A DNA stretch of 64,000 nt from Halostagnicola sp. A-GB9-2 (GCF_030068615.1 NZ_JASJOC010000001.1:434001-498000); one strand, 5' to 3'; positions 23,838-38,984 are shown, counted from the stretch's first letter. A program made the numbers and translations. Notes: generated from the letters alone by a model not told the origin.

Positions 23838-25127
23838 ATGAAGATCTCTATCATCGGGAGCGGCTACGTCGGAACGACGATCGCCGCCTGCCTCGCGGAC
23901 ATCGGCCACGACGTGATCAACGTCGAAATCGACGAGGAGATCGTCGAGTCGATCAACGCCGGCGACGCGCCGATCCACGAGCCGGGACTACAGGAGCGAA
24001 TTGCCGAACACGCCGGCTCGCGGCTTCAAGCGACGACCGACTACGACGCAGTCTGCGAGACCGACGTCACGTTTCTCTGTCTGCCGACGCCCCAGGCCGA
24101 CGACGGCAGCCTCGATCTGGCGATCATGGAAGCCGCTTCGGAGTCGCTCGGCGAGACCCTCGCCGACAAGTCCGACGACCACCTCGTCGTCGTCAAGAGC
24201 ACGGTTCTGCCGGGAACCACCGAGGAGGTCGTCGCACCGACCGTCACCGAGGCCGCCGAAACGCAGATCGGTGACGGGGTCGAGTTCGCCATGAATCCCG
24301 AGTTCCTCCGGATGAGCACGGCCGTCGCCGATTTCCTCGAGCCCGATAAGGTCGTGTTCGGGACGACTGACGACTCGGCGGCGGCGACGTTGCGAGAGCT
24401 TTACGCGCCAATTCTCGAGCGCGAGGAAACCGATCTCGTCGAAACCGACGTTCGCGAGGCCGAGTTGATCAAGTACGCGAACAACGCCTTCCTCGCGTCG
24501 AAGGTCTCGCTGGTCAACGAACTCGGAAACATCTCCAAGGAGTACGGCGCGGACGCCTACAAGGTCCTCGAGGCGGTCGGCCTCGACGACAGGGTCTCCG
24601 AGCGGTTCATGCGCTCGGGCCTTGGCTGGGGCGGCTCGTGTTTCCCCAAAGACGTCAACGCGCTTCGAGCGGGCGCACGCGAACAGGGGTACGAACCAGA
24701 CCTGCTCGACGCCGTCGTCGCTGTCAACGACAAACAACCCCGTCGACTCGTCGACGCGCTCGACGAACACGTCCCCCTCGAGGGGGCGAGGATCGCCGTT
24801 CTCGGGCTGTCGTTCAAACCCGACACGGACGATATCCGCAAATCTCGAGCGCTCGACGTTACCGAGTCCCTCCGCGCGAAAGGGGCAACCGTCGTGGCGT
24901 ACGATCCCGTCGCGATGGACAACGTCAGGGAGCGATACCCGGATCTCGAGTACGCCGAGACGGCCGAATCTGCCCTCGAGGACGCGGACGGGGCGGTCCT
25001 CGCGACGGACTGGGAGGAGTTCGACGACCTCTCGTTCGATGGCATGGCACGACGCGTCGTCGTCGACGGCCGGCGGGTCGACGTCGACACGCACGGGCTC
25101 GAGGTGTACGAAGGGCTGACCTGGTAG
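23838..25127 (+). CDS. aglM: UDP-glucose/GDP-mannose 6-dehydrogenase (AglM-like)
   Basis: 429 residues. It oxidises a nucleotide sugar twice to the uronic acid with NAD+, supplying glucuronic acid for the N-linked glycan of the S-layer. The Rossmann start MKISIIGSGYVGTTIAACLA, the middle domain (ELIKYANNAFLASKVSLVNE) and the catalytic cysteine in GGSCFPKDVNAL are all present, as is the C-terminal domain (VLGLSFKPDTDDIRKSRAL). The presence of aglJ next to it on the same strand supports a role in protein glycosylation. Confidence 0.9.
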   Translation: MKISIIGSGYVGTTIAACLADIGHDVINVEIDEEIVESINAGDAPIHEPGLQERIAEHAGSRLQATTDYDAVCETDVTFLCLPTPQADDGSLDLAIMEAASESLGETLADKSDDHLVVVKSTVLPGTTEEVVAPTVTEAAETQIGDGVEFAMNPEFLRMSTAVADFLEPDKVVFGTTDDSAAATLRELYAPILEREETDLVETDVREAELIKYANNAFLASKVSLVNELGNISKEYGADAYKVLEAVGLDDRVSERFMRSGLGWGGSCFPKDVNALRAGAREQGYEPDLLDAVVAVNDKQPRRLVDALDEHVPLEGARIAVLGLSFKPDTDDIRKSRALDVTESLRAKGATVVAYDPVAMDNVRERYPDLEYAETAESALEDADGAVLATDWEEFDDLSFDGMARRVVVDGRRVDVDTHGLEVYEGLTW

Positions 25128-25344
25128 CCGTGTCTCTCCAGTCGCCACCACTGCGAACCGGAACGTCCGCGGTTCGGGGCCGTCTGCGAACCGAAGCGAC
25201 CCCAGACTGCGGTCGTCTACGAACGCAGACCGTCCGTTCAGCGATCGATCAGTACTCTTTTGCGCTCTCGGGGGAGATTTGGTTGCGATGGCAAACGATG
25301 GCGCTCACGTGGATCCGATCGCTCGTGGCGGAGAGGTGGTGGCC

Positions 25345-26292
25345 ATGAGCGAGAAGTCGCGTGAGATCTCGCCCGAGGAGGTCTGTATTCTCATCCCGAC
25401 GCTCGAGGAGGCCGCAACTATCGGCGACGTGATCGAAGGGTTCCAGACGCACGGATACACGAACGTTCTCGTCGTCGACGGCGACTCCGACGACGACACT
25501 CGCGAAATCGCGAGCGAGCGCGGCGCTCGCGTCGTCGTTCAGTCGGGTTCGGGGAAGGGACAGGCCGTCCGCGAAGCGGTCGCGTACGTCGACGTCCCCT
25601 ACGTCCTGATGCTCGACGGGGACGGTACTTACGATCCGACAGACGCCGAACGGATGCTAGAACCCCTGGCCTACGGCTACGAGCACGTGATCGGCAACCG
25701 GTTCGCGGATATGGACGACGACGCGATGAAGGCGTTGAACGGCTTTGGAAACCGCATGATAAACCGGTCGTTCCGGTTCATTCACGGGGCCGAGTACGAC
25801 GACATCCTCTCGGGATACCGAGCGTTCACGACGGATTCGTTCGAGCGGCTCTCCCTCGATTCGGACGGCTTTACGATCGAGACCGAACTCGCCGTCGAGT
25901 GTGTCAAACACAACGTGAAGACGACGGTCGTCCCGGTTAGTTACAGCGCCCGGCCTGAGGACTCCGAAACGAACCTGCACCCGGTTCGGGACGGCGGGAC
26001 GATCATCTTGGCGCTGTATTCACTGGCAAAAACGAGCAATCCGCTGTTTTATTTCGGCAGTTTGGGCGTCGGTGGGATTATCTCCGGTGGCCTGTTATCG
26101 ATCTACGTCCTCACGCAGTGGATCTGGTACGGGGTCGGCCACGAAATCCTCGCGATGGTATCGGCCGCCGGCATCCTCCTCGGCGTCCAGTTACTGATGT
26201 TCGGCGTGCTCTCGGACATGATCGTCACGCTCCACCGCGAACAGCGAAATCACTTGGAGCAAGTGACGCGGGAAGCGAACCGAGAGGACTGA
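25345..26292 (+). CDS. aglJ: Dolichol-phosphate hexosyltransferase AglJ-like
   Basis: 315 residues from the ATG at 25345; in-frame starts at 25279 (TTG) and 25288 (ATG) are possible, and the latter fits a leaderless transcript. GT2 fold: VCILIPTLEEAATIGDVIEG, then the nucleotide-binding LVVDGDSDDDT and the DxD-like LMLDGDGTYDP. Two C-terminal membrane helices (GSLGVGGIISGGLLSIYVL; EILAMVSAAGILLGVQLLM). In Haloferax, AglJ adds the first hexose to dolichol phosphate for N-glycosylation. The aglM neighbour supports the call. Confidence 0.88.
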   Translation: MSEKSREISPEEVCILIPTLEEAATIGDVIEGFQTHGYTNVLVVDGDSDDDTREIASERGARVVVQSGSGKGQAVREAVAYVDVPYVLMLDGDGTYDPTDAERMLEPLAYGYEHVIGNRFADMDDDAMKALNGFGNRMINRSFRFIHGAEYDDILSGYRAFTTDSFERLSLDSDGFTIETELAVECVKHNVKTTVVPVSYSARPEDSETNLHPVRDGGTIILALYSLAKTSNPLFYFGSLGVGGIISGGLLSIYVLTQWIWYGVGHEILAMVSAAGILLGVQLLMFGVLSDMIVTLHREQRNHLEQVTREANRED

Positions 26293-31667: not shown

Positions 31668-31838
31668 TGCGCTGGGGCCTACCACGAGGGGGATTAAAGA
31701 ACTACCAGCGGGATTCTCTCCCGGAATGGGGGGCCTTCCAACGAAGGGGGTCCCGCGATGTGAGTGATCTCCCAAAGAGCTGATAACCACCCAAAGAAGC
31801 TTTTTCCGCGTCGTGGATGGGGTCGGTATGGATCGTCT

Positions 31839-32243
31839 ATGGCCGGTATGACTCTCCCCGGCGGTCTCGAGGTAGCGGGGGGAACGCCGATAGAGTGGGC
31901 CGCCGTCGCGCTCGTCATCCTGAGCGGCGGCATCCACCTCGCCCTCGGAATCGCGTTTCTACCGGAACCGATGGCCGTCGCTTTCGTCCTCGCCGGTCTT
32001 GGATTCTTCGGCGCGCTGATTCTCTTTTTACTCGGGATTCGACGTCGCGCGCTGTACCTCGCCGGAATTCCGTTCGTCGGCGCACAGGTCGTCATCTGGT
32101 ACGCGTTCAATCAACCGTCCGGTCTCGGCGACCTCTCGAGCGGCGAAGCCGTCGACAAGGTCGCACAGCTACTGTTGATCGGGATACTCGTCGTTCTGTT
32201 GCTCCGTGGCGACGATGGCAATCAAACCAATCGGGCTCCGTGA
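31839..32243 (+). CDS. DUF7475-type four-helix membrane protein
   Basis: 134 residues from the ATG at 31839. Four hydrophobic segments (WAAVALVILSGGIHLALGIA; MAVAFVLAGLGFFGALILFL; ALYLAGIPFVGAQVVIWYAF; QLLLIGILVVLLL). The pattern, with SLGDLSSGEAVDKVAQ-like loop, matches a conserved haloarchaeal membrane family of unknown function. It lies 39 bases before the CDP-alcohol phosphotransferase on the same strand and may be its first operon partner. Confidence 0.65.
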   Translation: MAGMTLPGGLEVAGGTPIEWAAVALVILSGGIHLALGIAFLPEPMAVAFVLAGLGFFGALILFLLGIRRRALYLAGIPFVGAQVVIWYAFNQPSGLGDLSSGEAVDKVAQLLLIGILVVLLLRGDDGNQTNRAP

Positions 32244-32282: not shown

Positions 32283-33056
32283 GTGATCAAACCCATACTC
32301 GAGACCCGTTCCGCAACGCCGCTCGGACGCTGGCTAACGACCGTTCTCGGCAGCGCACTCATGGTCGCAGCGGCGCTATCCGTGGTCGGTATCGTCTGGT
32401 CGACGATCCTCACGCTCGAGTTTCTGGGCTGGGTCGTCCTCATCCTCGGGCTCGAACTGCTCGTGGTGGGTTCGGTGATCGAACGGACGCACCGTCGGAT
32501 CGGCCACCAGCGGATCACCCTTGCGTCGTGGATCACGATCGCGCGAGCCGGAACGCTCGCGGTGCTGGTCGGCTTCCTCGTCGTCGGGCCGACGACGGAC
32601 CTGATGGCCTGGGTGCCGAGCATACTATTCGGAATCGCCGCGGTTCTCGACGGCGTCGACGGGGCGATCGCCCGCGCGACCGAGTCGGTAACCGAACTCG
32701 GCGGCCGCCTCGACACCGAGGTCGACGCGCTGACGACGCTCGTCGGCGCGAGCGCGGTCGTCACCGCGGGGACGGCCCCGATCGCCTTCATCGCGGTCGG
32801 GGTCGCGCGGTACGCGTTCGCTCTCGGTCTCTGGTGGCGACGCCGTCGGGGACAACCGGTTCGGGAGCTACCGCCGAATCGGGCCAGAGCGCCGCTCTCC
32901 GCGGTCACCCTGCTCACGATCTGGATCGCGTTTCTTCCGGTCGTAGACGAGCACGTCTCAATGGTGCTCACCGCCGCCGTCGCGATCCCGTTCTTGCTCA
33001 ACTTCGCAATCGATTGGGTGCTCGTTACCAGACGATCCGGGAGACGAACCGGTTGA
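32283..33056 (+). CDS. CDP-alcohol phosphatidyltransferase family enzyme
   Basis: 257 residues from a GTG at 32283. Integral membrane protein with six or so helices. The family motif DGx2ARx8Gx3Dx3D is intact in VLDGVDGAIARATES and the following GGRLDTEVDALTT. It transfers a phospho-alkyl or phospho-polyol group from a CDP-activated donor to an alcohol, making a phosphodiester. The substrate is not clear: archaeal phospholipid head groups are possible, but the neighbours (pterin synthase homologue, dehydrogenase, glycosyltransferase, methyltransferase) suggest another conjugate. A 50-residue N-terminal extension adds two helices. Confidence 0.85.
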   Translation: MIKPILETRSATPLGRWLTTVLGSALMVAAALSVVGIVWSTILTLEFLGWVVLILGLELLVVGSVIERTHRRIGHQRITLASWITIARAGTLAVLVGFLVVGPTTDLMAWVPSILFGIAAVLDGVDGAIARATESVTELGGRLDTEVDALTTLVGASAVVTAGTAPIAFIAVGVARYAFALGLWWRRRRGQPVRELPPNRARAPLSAVTLLTIWIAFLPVVDEHVSMVLTAAVAIPFLLNFAIDWVLVTRRSGRRTG

Positions 33057-33331
33057 CTCGATCGGGACAGGACTGCTCGATCCGAAGACGGCGTCCGATG
33101 CCCCGGAAACGACTTCCGTTCGCCTCGGAAACGGCCTGCGGATTCGATCGGAGTCAGGCGCGCCCGCCGAAGACGTTTGGCCGTCCCAATCAGTCAAAAA
33201 CTGCAGTAACGAACCCCTACCAAAGTGGAGCCGTGGGGATGAGCAGACCACTGTGATACTCCCTTCCCTCGTTGTTTCTCCGACCGGACCCGCGGTACTG
33301 AGAGGCGATTTCCGATGAGGCGACTCGACCG

Positions 33332-34360
33332 ATGACCGCACGCCGACTCGAGTTCATCGGTCCCCGTTCCGTCGAGGTTCGTTCCCGTTCGATTCCCGAC
33401 CCTGGGCCGGACGAGGTTCGCGTTCGAACGACCCTATCGGCGATCAGTGCGGGCACCGAGGGACTTATTTACCGTGGCGACGCCCCGAGAGAACTCCCGG
33501 CCGACGAGTCGATCGATTCCCTCGAGGGCGATTTTTCCTTCCCGCTCTCCTACGGCTACGCCGCCGTCGGCCGGGTGACCGCCGTCGGTCGCAACGTCTC
33601 CGAGGAGTGGCTCGAGCGTCGCGTCTTCGCGTACAATCCACACGAGAGTCACTTCGTTACCGACTCCGAGTCACTGCTCGAGATTCCCGACGCCGTGAGC
33701 GCACGCGAGGCCGCCCTCTTCGCGAACGTGGAGTCGGCGGTTTCATTTCTCCTCGACGGCGAACCCCTGATCGGCGAACGCGTCGCGGTCTTCGGTCAAG
33801 GCGTCGTCGGCCTCCTGACGACGGCCTTGCTCGCACGGACGCCGATCGAAACGCTGGTCGCCGTCGACAGATACGAACATCGTCGAGCGCTCGCTCGAGA
33901 ACTCGGAGCCGACCGAACGCTTGAGCCGACCGCGGACGGGGCGGAGGGGGTCGAGATTTCGGACGCCTTCGAGTCGATCGCCGGCGGGCGAGCGGATCTC
34001 ACCTACGAGCTCTCAGGGAGTCCGGCCGCCCTCGACGACGCGATCGCGACGGCGGGGTTCGACGGCCGGGTGATCGTCGGCTCATGGTACGGCACCAACC
34101 CGGTTACGCTCGATCTCGGCGGGCGGTTCCACCGCGATCGGATCGACGTCCGAAGCAGCCAGGTGAGTACGATCCCGCCGAGACACGAGGGCCGCTGGTC
34201 GCGCGAACGCCGCCACGCCGTCGCCTGGAACTGGCTCGAGAAACTCGACCTCGACGGACTGTTCACGCATCGACTGTCGCTCGAGCGAGCCGGAGAGGCG
34301 TATCGACTGCTCGAAACAAGTCCGGACGAAGCGGTTCAGGTACTGTTGAGCTACGAATGA
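33332..34360 (+). CDS. MDR-type dehydrogenase without zinc ligands (BchC-like)
   Basis: 342 residues. The N-terminal GroES-like domain (DPGPDEVRVRTTLSAISAGT) has the usual position-38 cysteine replaced by serine, so there is no catalytic zinc. The Rossmann motif is VAVFGQGVVGLLTTALLA, followed by VDRYEHRRALARELGADR. It most resembles medium-chain dehydrogenases such as BchC that reduce or oxidise a side-chain hydroxyl. Start is 275 bases after the upstream gene, so the cluster may have its own promoter here. The substrate is unknown. Confidence 0.82.
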   Translation: MTARRLEFIGPRSVEVRSRSIPDPGPDEVRVRTTLSAISAGTEGLIYRGDAPRELPADESIDSLEGDFSFPLSYGYAAVGRVTAVGRNVSEEWLERRVFAYNPHESHFVTDSESLLEIPDAVSAREAALFANVESAVSFLLDGEPLIGERVAVFGQGVVGLLTTALLARTPIETLVAVDRYEHRRALARELGADRTLEPTADGAEGVEISDAFESIAGGRADLTYELSGSPAALDDAIATAGFDGRVIVGSWYGTNPVTLDLGGRFHRDRIDVRSSQVSTIPPRHEGRWSRERRHAVAWNWLEKLDLDGLFTHRLSLERAGEAYRLLETSPDEAVQVLLSYE

Positions 34361-34464
34361 CGGCCGTTAACGCACGAACGCACTCCACTCGCGACCTTCC
34401 TACCAGCCATCATCCCCACCCGGTGGGCCACCCGTTTATTGTGCCGGTCGATGTACGCGGGGCC

Positions 34465-34926
34465 ATGTACGAGGTCTCGGTCAGCCGATCGTTCGTCGCG
34501 CAACACGCCCTCACGGTTGCGGAGGCGGGTCCGGAGGGAACTCTTCACTCTCACCAGTACACGGTGACGGCGACCTTCGCCGGGCCGACGCTCGGCGAAC
34601 ACGGCTATCTCGTCGATATCGACGACCTCAACGACGCGGTCGACGCCGCAGTCGGCCGATTCCGCGACCAATCGTTGAACAAACTCGAGTCCTTCGACGG
34701 ACACAATCCGAGCGTCGAACACTTCTCGCGGATCTTCGGCGATCGGCTCCTCGAATCCCTCGAACCGCCAACGGCGACTCGGCTCCGGATCTCGATGGCG
34801 GAAGACGATATCGCGACGGTACGTCACGAGCGAGCGCTCAAGTCGGGCACCGATTCGGTACCGACAGATCACGAGGCGGAGCGGCACATGCGCGAACAAA
34901 CACCGATGGCATCGGACCGGAGCTGA
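34465..34926 (+). CDS. 6-pyruvoyltetrahydropterin synthase/QueD homologue with altered active site
   Basis: 153 residues from the ATG at 34465. T-fold: three zinc histidines are visible, H14 (VAQHAL) and H28/H30 (LHSHQY), with HSH in place of HGH. The catalytic cysteine four residues before H28 is glutamate (E24), the PTPS-III pattern ExxxH. The Asp-His pair reads RDQSLNKL (D68, Q69), and the substrate glutamate is kept in NPSVEHF (E85). PTPS-III enzymes make 6-hydroxymethyldihydropterin; QueD makes the queuosine/archaeosine precursor. It lies 7 bases before the glycosyltransferase. Confidence 0.82.
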   Translation: MYEVSVSRSFVAQHALTVAEAGPEGTLHSHQYTVTATFAGPTLGEHGYLVDIDDLNDAVDAAVGRFRDQSLNKLESFDGHNPSVEHFSRIFGDRLLESLEPPTATRLRISMAEDDIATVRHERALKSGTDSVPTDHEAERHMREQTPMASDRS

Positions 34927-34932
34927 TGGCGG

Positions 34933-36057
34933 ATGAACATCGGGCTGGTCGTCTACGGCGATCTCGAGCAAACGTCGGGCGGCTACCGGTACGATAGAAA
35001 ACTCGTCTCGGCGCTCGAGGCGCGCGGAGACGGCGTCGATGTGATCTCTATTCCGCGACGGTCGTCTCTCCGGAACCTTGCCGACGGGTTCTCCCGCTCG
35101 CTCCGTACGAGACTGGATCAGCCGTACGACGTGCTCGTCCAGGACGAACTGTGCCACCCGTCGCTTGTGTTCCTCAACTCGCGTCTCGAGCGACCGAATT
35201 CGATCGTTTCGATCGTCCACTCGCTTCGCTCCGCGGGGGCGAACGGGATCCGTGCTCCGCTCTCTCGAACCATAGAGCGGCGGTATCTCGAGAGCGTCAA
35301 CGCGGCGGTCTGTACGAGCCGAGACACGCGCGATCGGACGGTGGCGCTCGCGAATCTTCCAGCGACCGTCGCACCCCCGGGTGGCCGCGTCGAGGGTGCG
35401 GGCGTTCCGACAGCTCGAGTGAGCAGGCGAGCCACGAACGCCGCCGACCCGCTTCGAGTGACGTTCATCGGAAACGTGATCCGCCGAAAGCGCGCCAGGG
35501 CGGTGGTATCCGCGCTCGGCCGAGCCGACTGCGAGTGGCGGTTGACCGTCGTCGGAAGTCTCGAGGAAGAGCCGGCCTACGCCCGGTCGGTGGTCGCCGA
35601 GGTCCGCGATTGCGGCGTCGAGGACCGGGTGACCTTCACCGGCAGGGTGACCGATTCCGAACTCGAGTGCGTCCTCGAGCGAAGCCATGTCCTCGCGGTT
35701 CCCGCTCGCTACGAAGGGTTCGGGATGGTCCACCTCGAGGCGATGGAGTACGGCGTCGTGCCGATCGCGGGCACGGTCGGCGGAGCAGACGAGTTCGTCG
35801 ACCACGGTCGAAACGGATACCTCGTCGACCCGTCTCGCCCGTCGGCGATCACCGCGATAGTCGAGCATCTCGAGGCCGACAGAAACCGCCTCACGGCACT
35901 CGGTGTGGCGGCGCTGGAGACCGCGGTGAAACACCCGCCCTGGGCGGAGACGATGACTCGAGTTCGATCGTTCCTGATCGAACGGGCGTCGGACTCGGAC
36001 CGCTCCGAACCCGGATCGGCTCCGCGGTCGACCCTCGAGTCGGAGTCGTCCCCGTGA
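34933..36057 (+). CDS. Glycosyltransferase family 4 protein
   Basis: 374 residues, GT-B fold. The N-terminal half begins MNIGLVVYGDLEQTSGGYRY (acceptor-binding glycine-rich loop). The C-terminal half has FIGNVIRRKRARAVVSALGR, VTFTGRVTDSELECVLERSH and the donor motif ARYEGFGMVHLEAMEYGVVP, with its E-x7-E glutamates. It transfers a sugar from a nucleotide donor. It is packed between the pterin synthase homologue (7-base gap) and the methyltransferase (34-base gap), so all three are probably one transcript. The final 25 residues are Ser/Pro-rich and variable. Confidence 0.88.
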   Translation: MNIGLVVYGDLEQTSGGYRYDRKLVSALEARGDGVDVISIPRRSSLRNLADGFSRSLRTRLDQPYDVLVQDELCHPSLVFLNSRLERPNSIVSIVHSLRSAGANGIRAPLSRTIERRYLESVNAAVCTSRDTRDRTVALANLPATVAPPGGRVEGAGVPTARVSRRATNAADPLRVTFIGNVIRRKRARAVVSALGRADCEWRLTVVGSLEEEPAYARSVVAEVRDCGVEDRVTFTGRVTDSELECVLERSHVLAVPARYEGFGMVHLEAMEYGVVPIAGTVGGADEFVDHGRNGYLVDPSRPSAITAIVEHLEADRNRLTALGVAALETAVKHPPWAETMTRVRSFLIERASDSDRSEPGSAPRSTLESESSP

Positions 36058-36091
36058 CAAAAATATCAACCTCCACATCAGTATCATCACC

Positions 36092-37042
36092 ATGACACAG
36101 TCACTGCAAGCGTACCTCGAGCACAAACGTACCGTCGACGATCGCGCGCTCAACGACCGGGTCTGGTCGGCGTTCGTCGATGGCCTCGCGGAACTCGCGG
36201 CGTTCGAGGACTCGAACGGCCGACCGAACGAACCAGTTCGAGTTCTCGAGATCGGCGGCGGAGTTGGGACTATGGTCGCGCGACTCGCCGAGCGGGACGC
36301 GTTGGCGCCGTCGGTCTCCTATCGGCTGGTCGACCTCGACGAACGGAACGTCGAGTATGCCCGACAACACCTGCCGGAGTGGCTCGAGGAAGCCGGGTAC
36401 GAGGTCGAACGGAGGCGATCGAGCGTGTTGGCTCGATCGACAGACGAACGGAGCGCCGATCAAACGGTCGAGGTACATCTCGAGGCGGGCGACGCGTTCG
36501 AAGCTCCCGATCGAGACGGCGAACGTTCGGAGGCGGACGCCGTCATCGCAAGCGCCGTCCTCGACACCGTCGACCTCGAGTACGCGCTGGGTCGAATTCC
36601 GGATCTGCTCCGAACCGGCGGACTGTTGTACGCGCCGATCACCTACGACGGGACGACGACGTTCTCGCCCCCCGATCCGCTCGACGAGCGGCTCACGGAG
36701 CTGTACAACCGCCACATGGACGAGATTCGGGACCGACCGGGAAGCAGTCGGGCGGGGCGAGAACTGTTCGCGGCCCTCGACCGACCTGGGAGCGAGTTCG
36801 ACCTCCTCGAGGTCGGCGGCTCCGACTGGATCGTCCGACCCCGCGACGGGGCGTACCCGGCCGACGAAAAGGCGTTCCTCCGACAGCTTCTCGAGACGAT
36901 CGACGGGGCGCTGGCGGCGTATCCGGAGACGGCGCTCGCACCGACGGATCGACAGCGGTGGGTCGATACGCGGCTGTCCCAGCTCGAGCGAGGCGAACTC
37001 AGCCTGATCGCGCGCCACCTCGACGTGCTGGCTCGTCTGTGA
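36092..37042 (+). CDS. SAM-dependent methyltransferase-like protein
   Basis: 316 residues. A class I Rossmann fold is indicated by motif I (VRVLEIGGGVGTMVARLAER), the acidic end of strand 2 (YRLVDLDERNVEYARQHLPE) and strand 4 (AVIASAVLDTVDLEYALGRI) followed by LLRTGGLLYAPITYDG. The N-terminus (about 45 residues) and the C-terminal helical region (from about 190) are extensions that probably bind the substrate. It is the last gene of the 32.3-37.0 kb cluster. Methyl acceptor unknown. Confidence 0.85.
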   Translation: MTQSLQAYLEHKRTVDDRALNDRVWSAFVDGLAELAAFEDSNGRPNEPVRVLEIGGGVGTMVARLAERDALAPSVSYRLVDLDERNVEYARQHLPEWLEEAGYEVERRRSSVLARSTDERSADQTVEVHLEAGDAFEAPDRDGERSEADAVIASAVLDTVDLEYALGRIPDLLRTGGLLYAPITYDGTTTFSPPDPLDERLTELYNRHMDEIRDRPGSSRAGRELFAALDRPGSEFDLLEVGGSDWIVRPRDGAYPADEKAFLRQLLETIDGALAAYPETALAPTDRQRWVDTRLSQLERGELSLIARHLDVLARL

Positions 37043-37092: not shown

Positions 37093-37776
37093 TTACTCGC
37101 CGACAGCGGTCCTCTCGGCGTCGGTCGCCCCCAACCACCACGCGATTCGATCGATTTCGAGGCGACGAAACGACGTCTTCATCGCGAGCCACTCACAGGA
37201 TGCGATCGAACGGAGCGGATTCGACGCGTCGAGCGCCGGCGAATCGATTTCGGTAGAGATCGACTCGAGAAACGCCGCAACCGCAGGATCCGGTTTGACC
37301 GTGTCGACGCCGGCGAGGATCCGGAGGTACTGCACGCTCGAGGGGCCGACGCCGGAGATACCGCCGATCGGGTCGGCTTCGTACCGGTAGATGTCCGCCT
37401 CGGCCGCCCAGACCTGTAACGATTCGAGGTCGCCGTCCTCCGGACGACGCTCGAGTCGATCGGCGATCTCGAGTAGCACGTGGCGTTTGCGCCGAGCGCC
37501 GACGGCTTCGACGAGGTCGTCGTCCTCGAGCGTGAGCGACGCGAGATCCGACAGGGACGCGAGCCGACCGCTCTCGACGAACGAGTCGCGAAATCGCTCG
37601 ACGGTCGGCTGGATCCCGCCGGTGAAGCTCTGGCCGGTCGTCGAAGCGGCGGCCTCCGTAACCAGAAGGAGTGGGTTGGATCCGGTGAATCGATCGAACT
37701 CCAGAAACGCGTCTGCGAGCGCTTTGTAGGGTATCCCTTCCGCGCGTCGCTCGAGGATCGCCTCGACGGTACTCAT
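37093..37776 (-). CDS. HhH-GPD-like (endonuclease III fold) protein
   Basis: 227 residues from the ATG at 37776. A helix-hairpin-helix is visible in GGISGVGPSSVQYLRILAGV, followed by DTVKPDPAVAAFLESI, the spacing seen in endonuclease III/HhH-GPD DNA glycosylases (the aspartate of DTHV corresponds to DTVK). No 4Fe-4S cysteine cluster. It may bind DNA but enzyme activity is not assured, since the catalytic lysine position is not clear. Convergent with the methyltransferase gene. Confidence 0.6.
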   Translation of the reverse strand: MSTVEAILERRAEGIPYKALADAFLEFDRFTGSNPLLLVTEAAASTTGQSFTGGIQPTVERFRDSFVESGRLASLSDLASLTLEDDDLVEAVGARRKRHVLLEIADRLERRPEDGDLESLQVWAAEADIYRYEADPIGGISGVGPSSVQYLRILAGVDTVKPDPAVAAFLESISTEIDSPALDASNPLRSIASCEWLAMKTSFRRLEIDRIAWWLGATDAERTAVGE

Positions 37777-37892
37777 ACTGTTCGCTCGAGGGAATTCAGG
37801 TTGGAACGAAATAGTCCTATCGGCGAATCGAAGTCGGGGGTGGACGTTGCTCGAAGGGAGCAACTGGCGAAGCGTACGAAGTGAGCCGGGGC

Positions 37893-38876
37893 CTACTCGA
37901 GGCCCTCCGGGGCGTGATTCGTGATCGTCGTGTGTGCCCCGATGAGCGCACCCGCCAGATCCAAGTTCTCGAGGTGGGTCCCCTCGTCGATGATCGAGCG
38001 ACGAATATCGCCGTTTCGAACCGTGGCGTCGGGGAAGATGACGGCGTGGTCGAGATCCGTCTCCTCGAGCGTCGCGCCGTCCATCACGTGGACGTTGTCG
38101 CCGATCGTGGCGTTCTCGAGGGTGGCCGTGTCGGCGATCATCGACTTCCCGTTGAGGTGCCAGGCGACCGCGTTGAGGTAACTCTCCGGCGTGCCGATAT
38201 CGAACCACGCGTCCTCGAACGTGTACGCGTGCGTTTGCACCCGGTTCTGGAGCCACTGGACGAACCAGCCCGGCTCGTCCGGGTTGTTGCCGTCCTCGAG
38301 GTACGTCCCGAGGAGCGACAGCGCATCTTGGGGAAACGCATAGCACGCGATAGAGACGAGCGTGCTCTTCGGGTCGTCGGGTTTTTCCTGAAAGTCTACG
38401 ACTCGATCGCCCTCGAGTTCGACCAGGCCGTAGGACGACGCCTTCTCTCTCGAGCCGACGTCGTAGGCGGCGAGCGTCGGCGTCTCCTTTCGTTCGAAGT
38501 AATCGAGGAAGTCGGAAACGTCGAAGCTGATCAGATTGTCGCCGGCGATAACGAGCAGGTCGTCGTCGACTTCTTCTCGTTCGACGAGTTGGGCGAGCGC
38601 GCCGACGACGCCGAACTTGTCGGCTTCTTCGCTGGTATCTTCGATGGAGAGGCGGGGCTTTTCGAACTCGGTCTCTGCGAGATGGGTCTCGAAATCCGGC
38701 GCGAACCGTTCGTTCGTGCTCACGTAGACTTCGTCGATCCGATCGTCGTTCTCGAGGGACTGAAAGATCCGATCGATGACGGTGGAGTCGCCGATGGGGA
38801 GGAACATCTTGGGCCGATGTTTCGTAATCGGCCACATCCGGGTCGCGTACCCACCTGCAAGGACGACGGCCTTCAT
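37893..38876 (-). CDS. Sugar-phosphate nucleotidyltransferase with left-handed beta-helix tail
   Basis: 327 residues from the ATG at 38876. The nucleotide-binding signature is AVVLAGGYATRMWPITKHRP; DLLVIAGDNLISFD carries the metal-binding aspartate and FQEKPDDPKS the sugar-binding loop. The C-terminus from about residue 235 (GKSMIADTATLENATIGDNV, VIFPDATVRNGDIRRSII) has hexapeptide-like repeats of a left-handed beta helix. It makes an NDP-sugar (UDP-, dTDP- or GDP-) for glycosylation. It could supply the glycosyltransferase 2 kb away or AglJ. Divergent from the HTH-zinc-ribbon regulator. Confidence 0.85.
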   Translation of the reverse strand: MKAVVLAGGYATRMWPITKHRPKMFLPIGDSTVIDRIFQSLENDDRIDEVYVSTNERFAPDFETHLAETEFEKPRLSIEDTSEEADKFGVVGALAQLVEREEVDDDLLVIAGDNLISFDVSDFLDYFERKETPTLAAYDVGSREKASSYGLVELEGDRVVDFQEKPDDPKSTLVSIACYAFPQDALSLLGTYLEDGNNPDEPGWFVQWLQNRVQTHAYTFEDAWFDIGTPESYLNAVAWHLNGKSMIADTATLENATIGDNVHVMDGATLEETDLDHAVIFPDATVRNGDIRRSIIDEGTHLENLDLAGALIGAHTTITNHAPEGLE

Positions 38877-38984
38877 GGCACGGATTTCACCGGCTGGATG
38901 TAAGTCACTTACCCTTTCTACAGTTTCAGACCGCCCATCGAGCGAATACCAACACGTAAGCCGTCCCGGCCACTCCAAGCAACT

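Follow-up and report, generated by a model that had tools for sequence, protein, structure and literature searches.

The analysed stretch (the window; 64,000 nucleotides) is part of the 4.68-Mb genome of the haloarchaeon Halostagnicola sp. A-GB9-2. Five ORFs, all on the plus strand, span positions 32283-37042, as the first-pass annotation had described, and the Pfam assignment agreed for each. The first encodes a CDP-alcohol phosphotransferase (32283-33056; PF01066 CDP-OH_P_transf, 2.4e-13). It is followed by the two core genes, for an MDR-family dehydrogenase (33332-34360; PF00107 ADH_zinc_N, 7e-12) and a non-canonical tunnelling-fold protein of the 6-pyruvoyltetrahydropterin synthase (PTPS) family (34465-34926; PF01242, 1.3e-20), and then by genes for a GT4 glycosyltransferase (34933-36057; PF00534 Glycos_transf_1, 4e-28) and a class I SAM methyltransferase with a C-terminal region of its own (36092-37042; PF08242 and others, 4e-9). 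A sixth gene, for a small DUF7475 membrane protein (31764-32243, plus strand; PF24287, 1.5e-8, above the cut-off), ends 39 bases upstream of the phosphotransferase gene and is part of the set in relatives; its real start is possibly 31839 or 31848. Of the tight packing noted earlier, the 34-base gap between glycosyltransferase and methyltransferase was confirmed, and the gap between PTPS and glycosyltransferase is 6 bases instead of 7.

By homology to its relatives, the PTPS gene starts at ATG 34465. An alternative in-frame ATG at 34357 overlaps the stop codon of the MDR gene (ATGA). A T/A-rich TTTATT stretch lies about 28 bases 5' of ATG 34465 (34436-34464); as a candidate haloarchaeal promoter box it could favour the shorter PTPS protein and a second transcript start. 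No GTP cyclohydrolase gene adjoins the cluster in the window, and the FAPy-type GTP cyclohydrolase of this genome (ArfA) is encoded on another contig (C35). Near the conserved cluster, without being members of it, are genes for a UDP-glucose/GDP-mannose dehydrogenase and a GT2 glycosyltransferase (24003-26292). From the right, a gene for a sugar-1-phosphate nucleotidyltransferase (37893-38879, minus strand) faces the cluster; it could supply an NDP-sugar, and was not found beside the cluster in the haloarchaeal relatives checked. The ORF between them (37093-37908, minus strand) gave no Pfam match.

The T-fold, the three zinc histidines (H14, H28, H30) and the pterin-anchoring glutamate (E113) place the PTPS-like protein in the PTPS tunnelling-fold superfamily. 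Its structure was predicted with a pLDDT of 90, and the best PDB match was 3d7j (SCO6650 of Streptomyces coelicolor), followed by QueD and PTPS. Fold, zinc histidines and anchoring glutamate are shared with QueD, whereas the catalytic residues and the genome context are not. The window motif reads GPEGTLHSH, with no cysteine, and neither the CxxxHGH motif nor the Asp-His dyad of QueD/PTPS-I is present; the catalytic cysteine was found in 15/15 QueD-type sequences compared. The TIGR03367 score was 41.7 bits against a cut-off of 89.25, and the same genome encodes, as a different gene, a QueD that has CxxxHGH and Asp-His. The CxxxxxHGH motif of the biopterin enzymes (PTPS-II; PMC5041015) is also missing. 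PTPS-III (Plasmodium-type, folate) likewise has a glutamate near the zinc motif, but comparison with the Plasmodium alignment placed the haloarchaeal residue at -4, the position of the QueD cysteine, and not at -3: instead of ExxHGH, the window protein has ExxxHSH, with the glutamate one residue further upstream and HSH in place of HGH. The earlier assignment to the PTPS family thus held (PF01242, predicted fold), but not its reading as a pterin synthase of a known type, and the active site on the preserved fold lacks both the cysteine and the Asp-His dyad.

Haloarchaeal and actinobacterial PTPS sequences formed one clade (support 0.999), apart from the QueD-type sequences. In this clade the Asp-His dyad is replaced. 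At the position of the QueD cysteine, glutamate was found in 77/78 haloarchaeal sequences (aspartate in one) and alanine in the actinobacteria. The pterin-anchoring glutamate is invariant across the clade and the first two zinc histidines are kept throughout; the third is kept in haloarchaea and most actinobacteria and is alanine in Streptomyces. Judged from these residues and the predicted fold, the protein should bind a 2-amino-4-oxo-pyrimidine or a pterin. Because the catalytic cysteine and the Asp-His dyad are gone, the known PTPS chemistry is not usable unchanged. With alanine for glutamate in actinobacteria and no third zinc histidine in Streptomyces, catalysis may differ between lineages, and in some of them the protein may lack enzymatic activity.

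The MDR protein keeps a GxGxxG Rossmann motif and contains no cysteine at all, and therefore lacks the usual zinc ligands, in agreement with the first-pass annotation; it is not a zinc-dependent MDR alcohol dehydrogenase. It resembles polyol dehydrogenases and scored 72 bits against the BchC-like model TIGR01202, below the cut-off of 291. The CDP-alcohol phosphotransferase has the intact catalytic motif DxxDGxxARx8Gx3Dx3D (DGVDGAIAR...G...D...D, residue 123), and the GT4 protein carries the EX7E motif as EGFGMVHLE at residue 261. The methyltransferase fold was predicted with a pLDDT of 95; profile search and fold search pointed to no single substrate. The phosphotransferase and methyltransferase were also considered as counterparts of the polar-lipid genes HVO_1136 and HVO_1135 of Haloferax, but the literature gave no PTPS link for these, and this reading was abandoned.

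Orthologues of the window PTPS were found in 171/292 Halobacteria genomes and 54/77 genera. Both MDR and PTPS were present in 169 of these genomes, neither in 120, PTPS only in 2 and MDR only in 1 (five weak MDR matches excluded); the Fisher test on these counts assumes independent genomes and, as the genomes are related, is only indicative. Within families, and even in the genus of the window, genomes with and without these genes alternate, MDR being gained and lost along with PTPS. In 77 haloarchaeal loci, genes within 5 kb of PTPS were counted by tblastn, since heuristic ORF calling missed some short genes. MDR was found in 68 loci, methyltransferase in 60, GT4 (downstream) in 48, CDP-alcohol phosphotransferase in 45 and DUF7475 in 44. 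MDR-PTPS(-GT4) is the part of the cluster that varies least; methyltransferase and CDP-alcohol phosphotransferase occur often without being obligatory, and each of these two, like GT4, is missing from part of the loci. The first-pass proposal of a conserved biosynthetic cluster, in which enzymes for sugar, methyl, redox and phosphodiester chemistry accompany a PTPS homologue, depended on the genes being neighbours in related genomes, and they are. ArfA (GCH_III by Pfam) was located within 5 kb of PTPS in 28/77 loci, always on the PTPS strand (P = 1e-46, only indicative because independent genomes are assumed). Its gene lies between the CDP-alcohol phosphotransferase and MDR genes or directly 3' of the methyltransferase gene, and often overlaps or nearly touches its neighbour (e.g. 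L063, L064, L067, L038, L059). A Gfo/Idh/MocA-aldo/keto reductase family was encoded near PTPS in 23 haloarchaeal loci (L066, L094, L103, L105 and others); in the one example examined, the oxidoreductase is fused to the aldo/keto reductase. PAP2 proteins are occasional neighbours of the cluster.

The best solved relative of the window PTPS is SCO6650 (profile E 6e-40). Streptomyces loci were collected by a scan of genome contigs with a SCO6650 fragment, and 80 were kept. All 80 have MDR, PTPS and GT4 in the haloarchaeal order, followed in 78 by a recognisable methyltransferase. They differ from the window locus in the CDP-alcohol phosphotransferase gene, which is divergent and upstream of MDR (80/80, within 5 kb of PTPS), and in their added genes for LPG_synthase_TM (77), a creatininase-family protein (75) and GTP cyclohydrolase II (75). 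When the window MDR was compared with five complete Streptomyces chromosomes, one copy, located at the cluster, matched with E of about 1e-40, and no other match was better than about 1e-11.

Among 296 sampled Actinomycetota genomes, 69 had a PTPS match, some of them QueD, and 20 neighbourhoods outside Streptomyces were fetched. These contained a PTPS match in 19 cases (that of L235 is QueD), MDR in 17 and GT4 in 18, and the order MDR, PTPS, GT4 was kept in most. GT4 was downstream of PTPS within 5 kb in 18/19 PTPS loci. A RibD_C reductase was encoded within 5 kb on the same strand in 17 loci, mostly directly upstream of MDR. In L228, GCH2, RibD_C, MDR, PTPS and GT4 form one run with gaps of -4, -14, -8 and 29 bases. 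A gene for a PHP-domain protein often comes next. A DUF7475 protein was found near the core in six loci. In ten loci (among L223-L240), a FolB-type dihydroneopterin aldolase is encoded divergently, some 2.2 kb upstream of PTPS. The gene order goes beyond chance, since it is met again in loci of haloarchaea, Streptomyces and other actinobacteria. Through its adjacent MDR and clade PTPS genes, with GT4 downstream as is usual, the segment 33332-36057 of the window belongs to this cross-domain cluster. The spread to actinobacteria and the GTP-entry enzymes beside the cluster in relatives go beyond the first-pass annotation.

GCH_III, GCH2, creatininase and RibD_C are four unrelated families from one segment of metabolism, and separate lineages have them next to the same core. 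In the archaeal entry to riboflavin and F420, GCH_III (ArfA), which serves both, forms FAPy-phosphate. ArfB, a member of the creatininase family, removes the formyl group, and RibD_C/ArfC converts the ribosylamino-pyrimidinone by reduction into its ribitylamino form. The same enzyme families (GCH_III or GCH2, creatininase, RibD_C) occur beside the cluster in relatives; unlike that entry, the cluster adds MDR, PTPS, GT4 and methyltransferase and is not universal in haloarchaea. SCO6655 of S. coelicolor is reportedly a homologue of GTP cyclohydrolase II whose reaction ends at FAPy. The variety of GTP-opening enzymes next to one and the same core speaks for FAPy or diaminopyrimidine substrates, not for dihydroneopterin triphosphate. 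Most simply read, the substrate of the core comes from the FAPy/diaminopyrimidine series.

With gene identity, conserved order, co-occurrence, residue pattern and linkage to GTP/diaminopyrimidine enzymes in relatives observed directly, we infer the substrate, step order, ring closure, lipid or phosphodiester linkage and product as follows. A FAPy-forming GTP cyclohydrolase, which adjoins the core in many relatives and would here be ArfA acting from the other contig, would open the imidazole ring of GTP. Deformylation would give a 2,5-diamino-6-(ribosyl- or ribityl-)amino-pyrimidinone phosphate, whose 2-amino-4-oxo-pyrimidine edge the PTPS-like protein would bind through the invariant glutamate. 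Together with the zinc-free MDR it would reshape the ribose-derived side chain and probably close the dihydropterin ring, side-chain redox being carried out by MDR with or without RibD_C/ArfC. The GT4 enzyme would then add a sugar, and the SAM enzyme would usually add a methyl group. A phosphodiester link between the product and a lipid or polyol may finally be made by the CDP-alcohol phosphotransferase together with DUF7475. A lipid-linked product would fit DUF7475, LPG_synthase_TM in the Streptomyces loci and the occasional PAP2 neighbours. The most likely product would be a pterin-like compound that carries a sugar, often also a methyl group, and is possibly linked to a lipid or through a phosphodiester. 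That the locus encodes the later part of such a GTP-derived pathway to a pterin-like conjugate, with these steps, is in our judgement probable, though well short of certain. The modified pterin carrying sugar, phosphodiester and methyl groups that had been proposed from the genes of the window remains plausible in kind, with methyl and phosphodiester steps that vary across loci.

Other readings were weighed against this one. In the window, the GT4 and CDP-alcohol phosphotransferase genes, with the UDP-sugar dehydrogenase (24003) and nucleotidyltransferase (37893) as further neighbours, would also suit a glycolipid or surface-glycan cluster, in which PTPS and MDR would act on a sugar or polyol and the GTP cyclohydrolase neighbours would be coincidental riboflavin genes. 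The likeness of MDR to polyol dehydrogenases and the Gfo/Idh-aldo/keto reductase family in 23 relatives agree with this. It leaves the GTP-opening enzymes unexplained, however: genes of four unrelated GTP/diaminopyrimidine enzyme families border this core in separate lineages, in many cases with overlaps, and the pterin-anchoring glutamate is invariant. We regard a glycan cluster as unlikely, with a small but real chance of being correct. A modular second pterin route that replaces GTP cyclohydrolase I/MptA and yields a new class of membrane-bound pterins in haloarchaea and actinobacteria appears rather unlikely too. In such a route, GCH_III or GCH2 would open GTP, creatininase would deformylate, RibD_C/ArfC would reduce C1' of the ribose and MDR would oxidise C2', in effect an Amadori rearrangement carried out as two redox steps; the PTPS-like protein would close the dihydropterin ring before glycosylation, methylation and lipid joining.

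An archaeosine, biopterin or folate enzyme (QueD, PTPS-II or PTPS-III) placed beside glycan genes by chance would account for PF01242 membership and for the conserved zinc histidines and anchoring glutamate. It is hard to reconcile with the separate QueD in the genome, with a clade that lacks Cys and Asp-His, with the motif HSH, the glutamate at -4 instead of -3 and the missed QueD cut-off, or with haloarchaeal neighbours that are not queuosine or folate genes, and we consider it improbable. A role in F420 (deazaflavin) biosynthesis could be suspected from ArfA, which also feeds F420 and adjoins the cluster in relatives. A review moreover places an unpublished PTPS-IV subfamily in F420 synthesis (PMC5041015). 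CofG was found in 292/292 Halobacteria genomes against 171/292 for PTPS, so that the cluster is not needed for F420, and this role is very improbable.

The cluster encodes an ancient pathway, probably to a GTP-derived, pterin-like conjugate, and many haloarchaea and actinobacteria share its gene order. A pathway that two domains of life preserve in this order, and that over half of the haloarchaea sampled possess, presumably makes something useful. In full-text searches by locus tags and gene combinations, which took in few subscription papers, no description of the cluster or its product was found. The closest known system, the SCO6650/SCO6655 locus, shares with the window the PTPS clade, the order MDR, PTPS, GT4, methyltransferase and the CDP-alcohol phosphotransferase; no published product of that locus was found in the literature searched. 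Phosphorylated or sulfated pterins have been reported from haloarchaea, and no gene cluster was linked to them in the full-text literature searched by name. Pterin glycosides are known from cyanobacteria (PMC13259868) and illustrate chemistry that the cluster could produce, a glycosylated pterin, perhaps with a phosphodiester. If the product is a pterin or pterin-like conjugate, the cluster would supply candidates for the genes behind the orphan pterins of haloarchaea and a context for the SCO6650 and SCO6655 enzymes of Streptomyces. The label '6-pyruvoyl-tetrahydropterin synthase', given automatically to proteins without the catalytic residues of that enzyme, would be corrected as well. Streptomyces, or a haloarchaeon amenable to genetics, would allow a direct test of the proposal.

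Two expression data sets touch on these genes. COG0720 was up in acid in three haloarchaea, in a report that does not state which COG0720 gene was meant (PMC4176423). SCO6652, close in number to SCO6650, was up in the second-stage mycelium of Streptomyces (PMC3610822). Both are weak hints of regulation.
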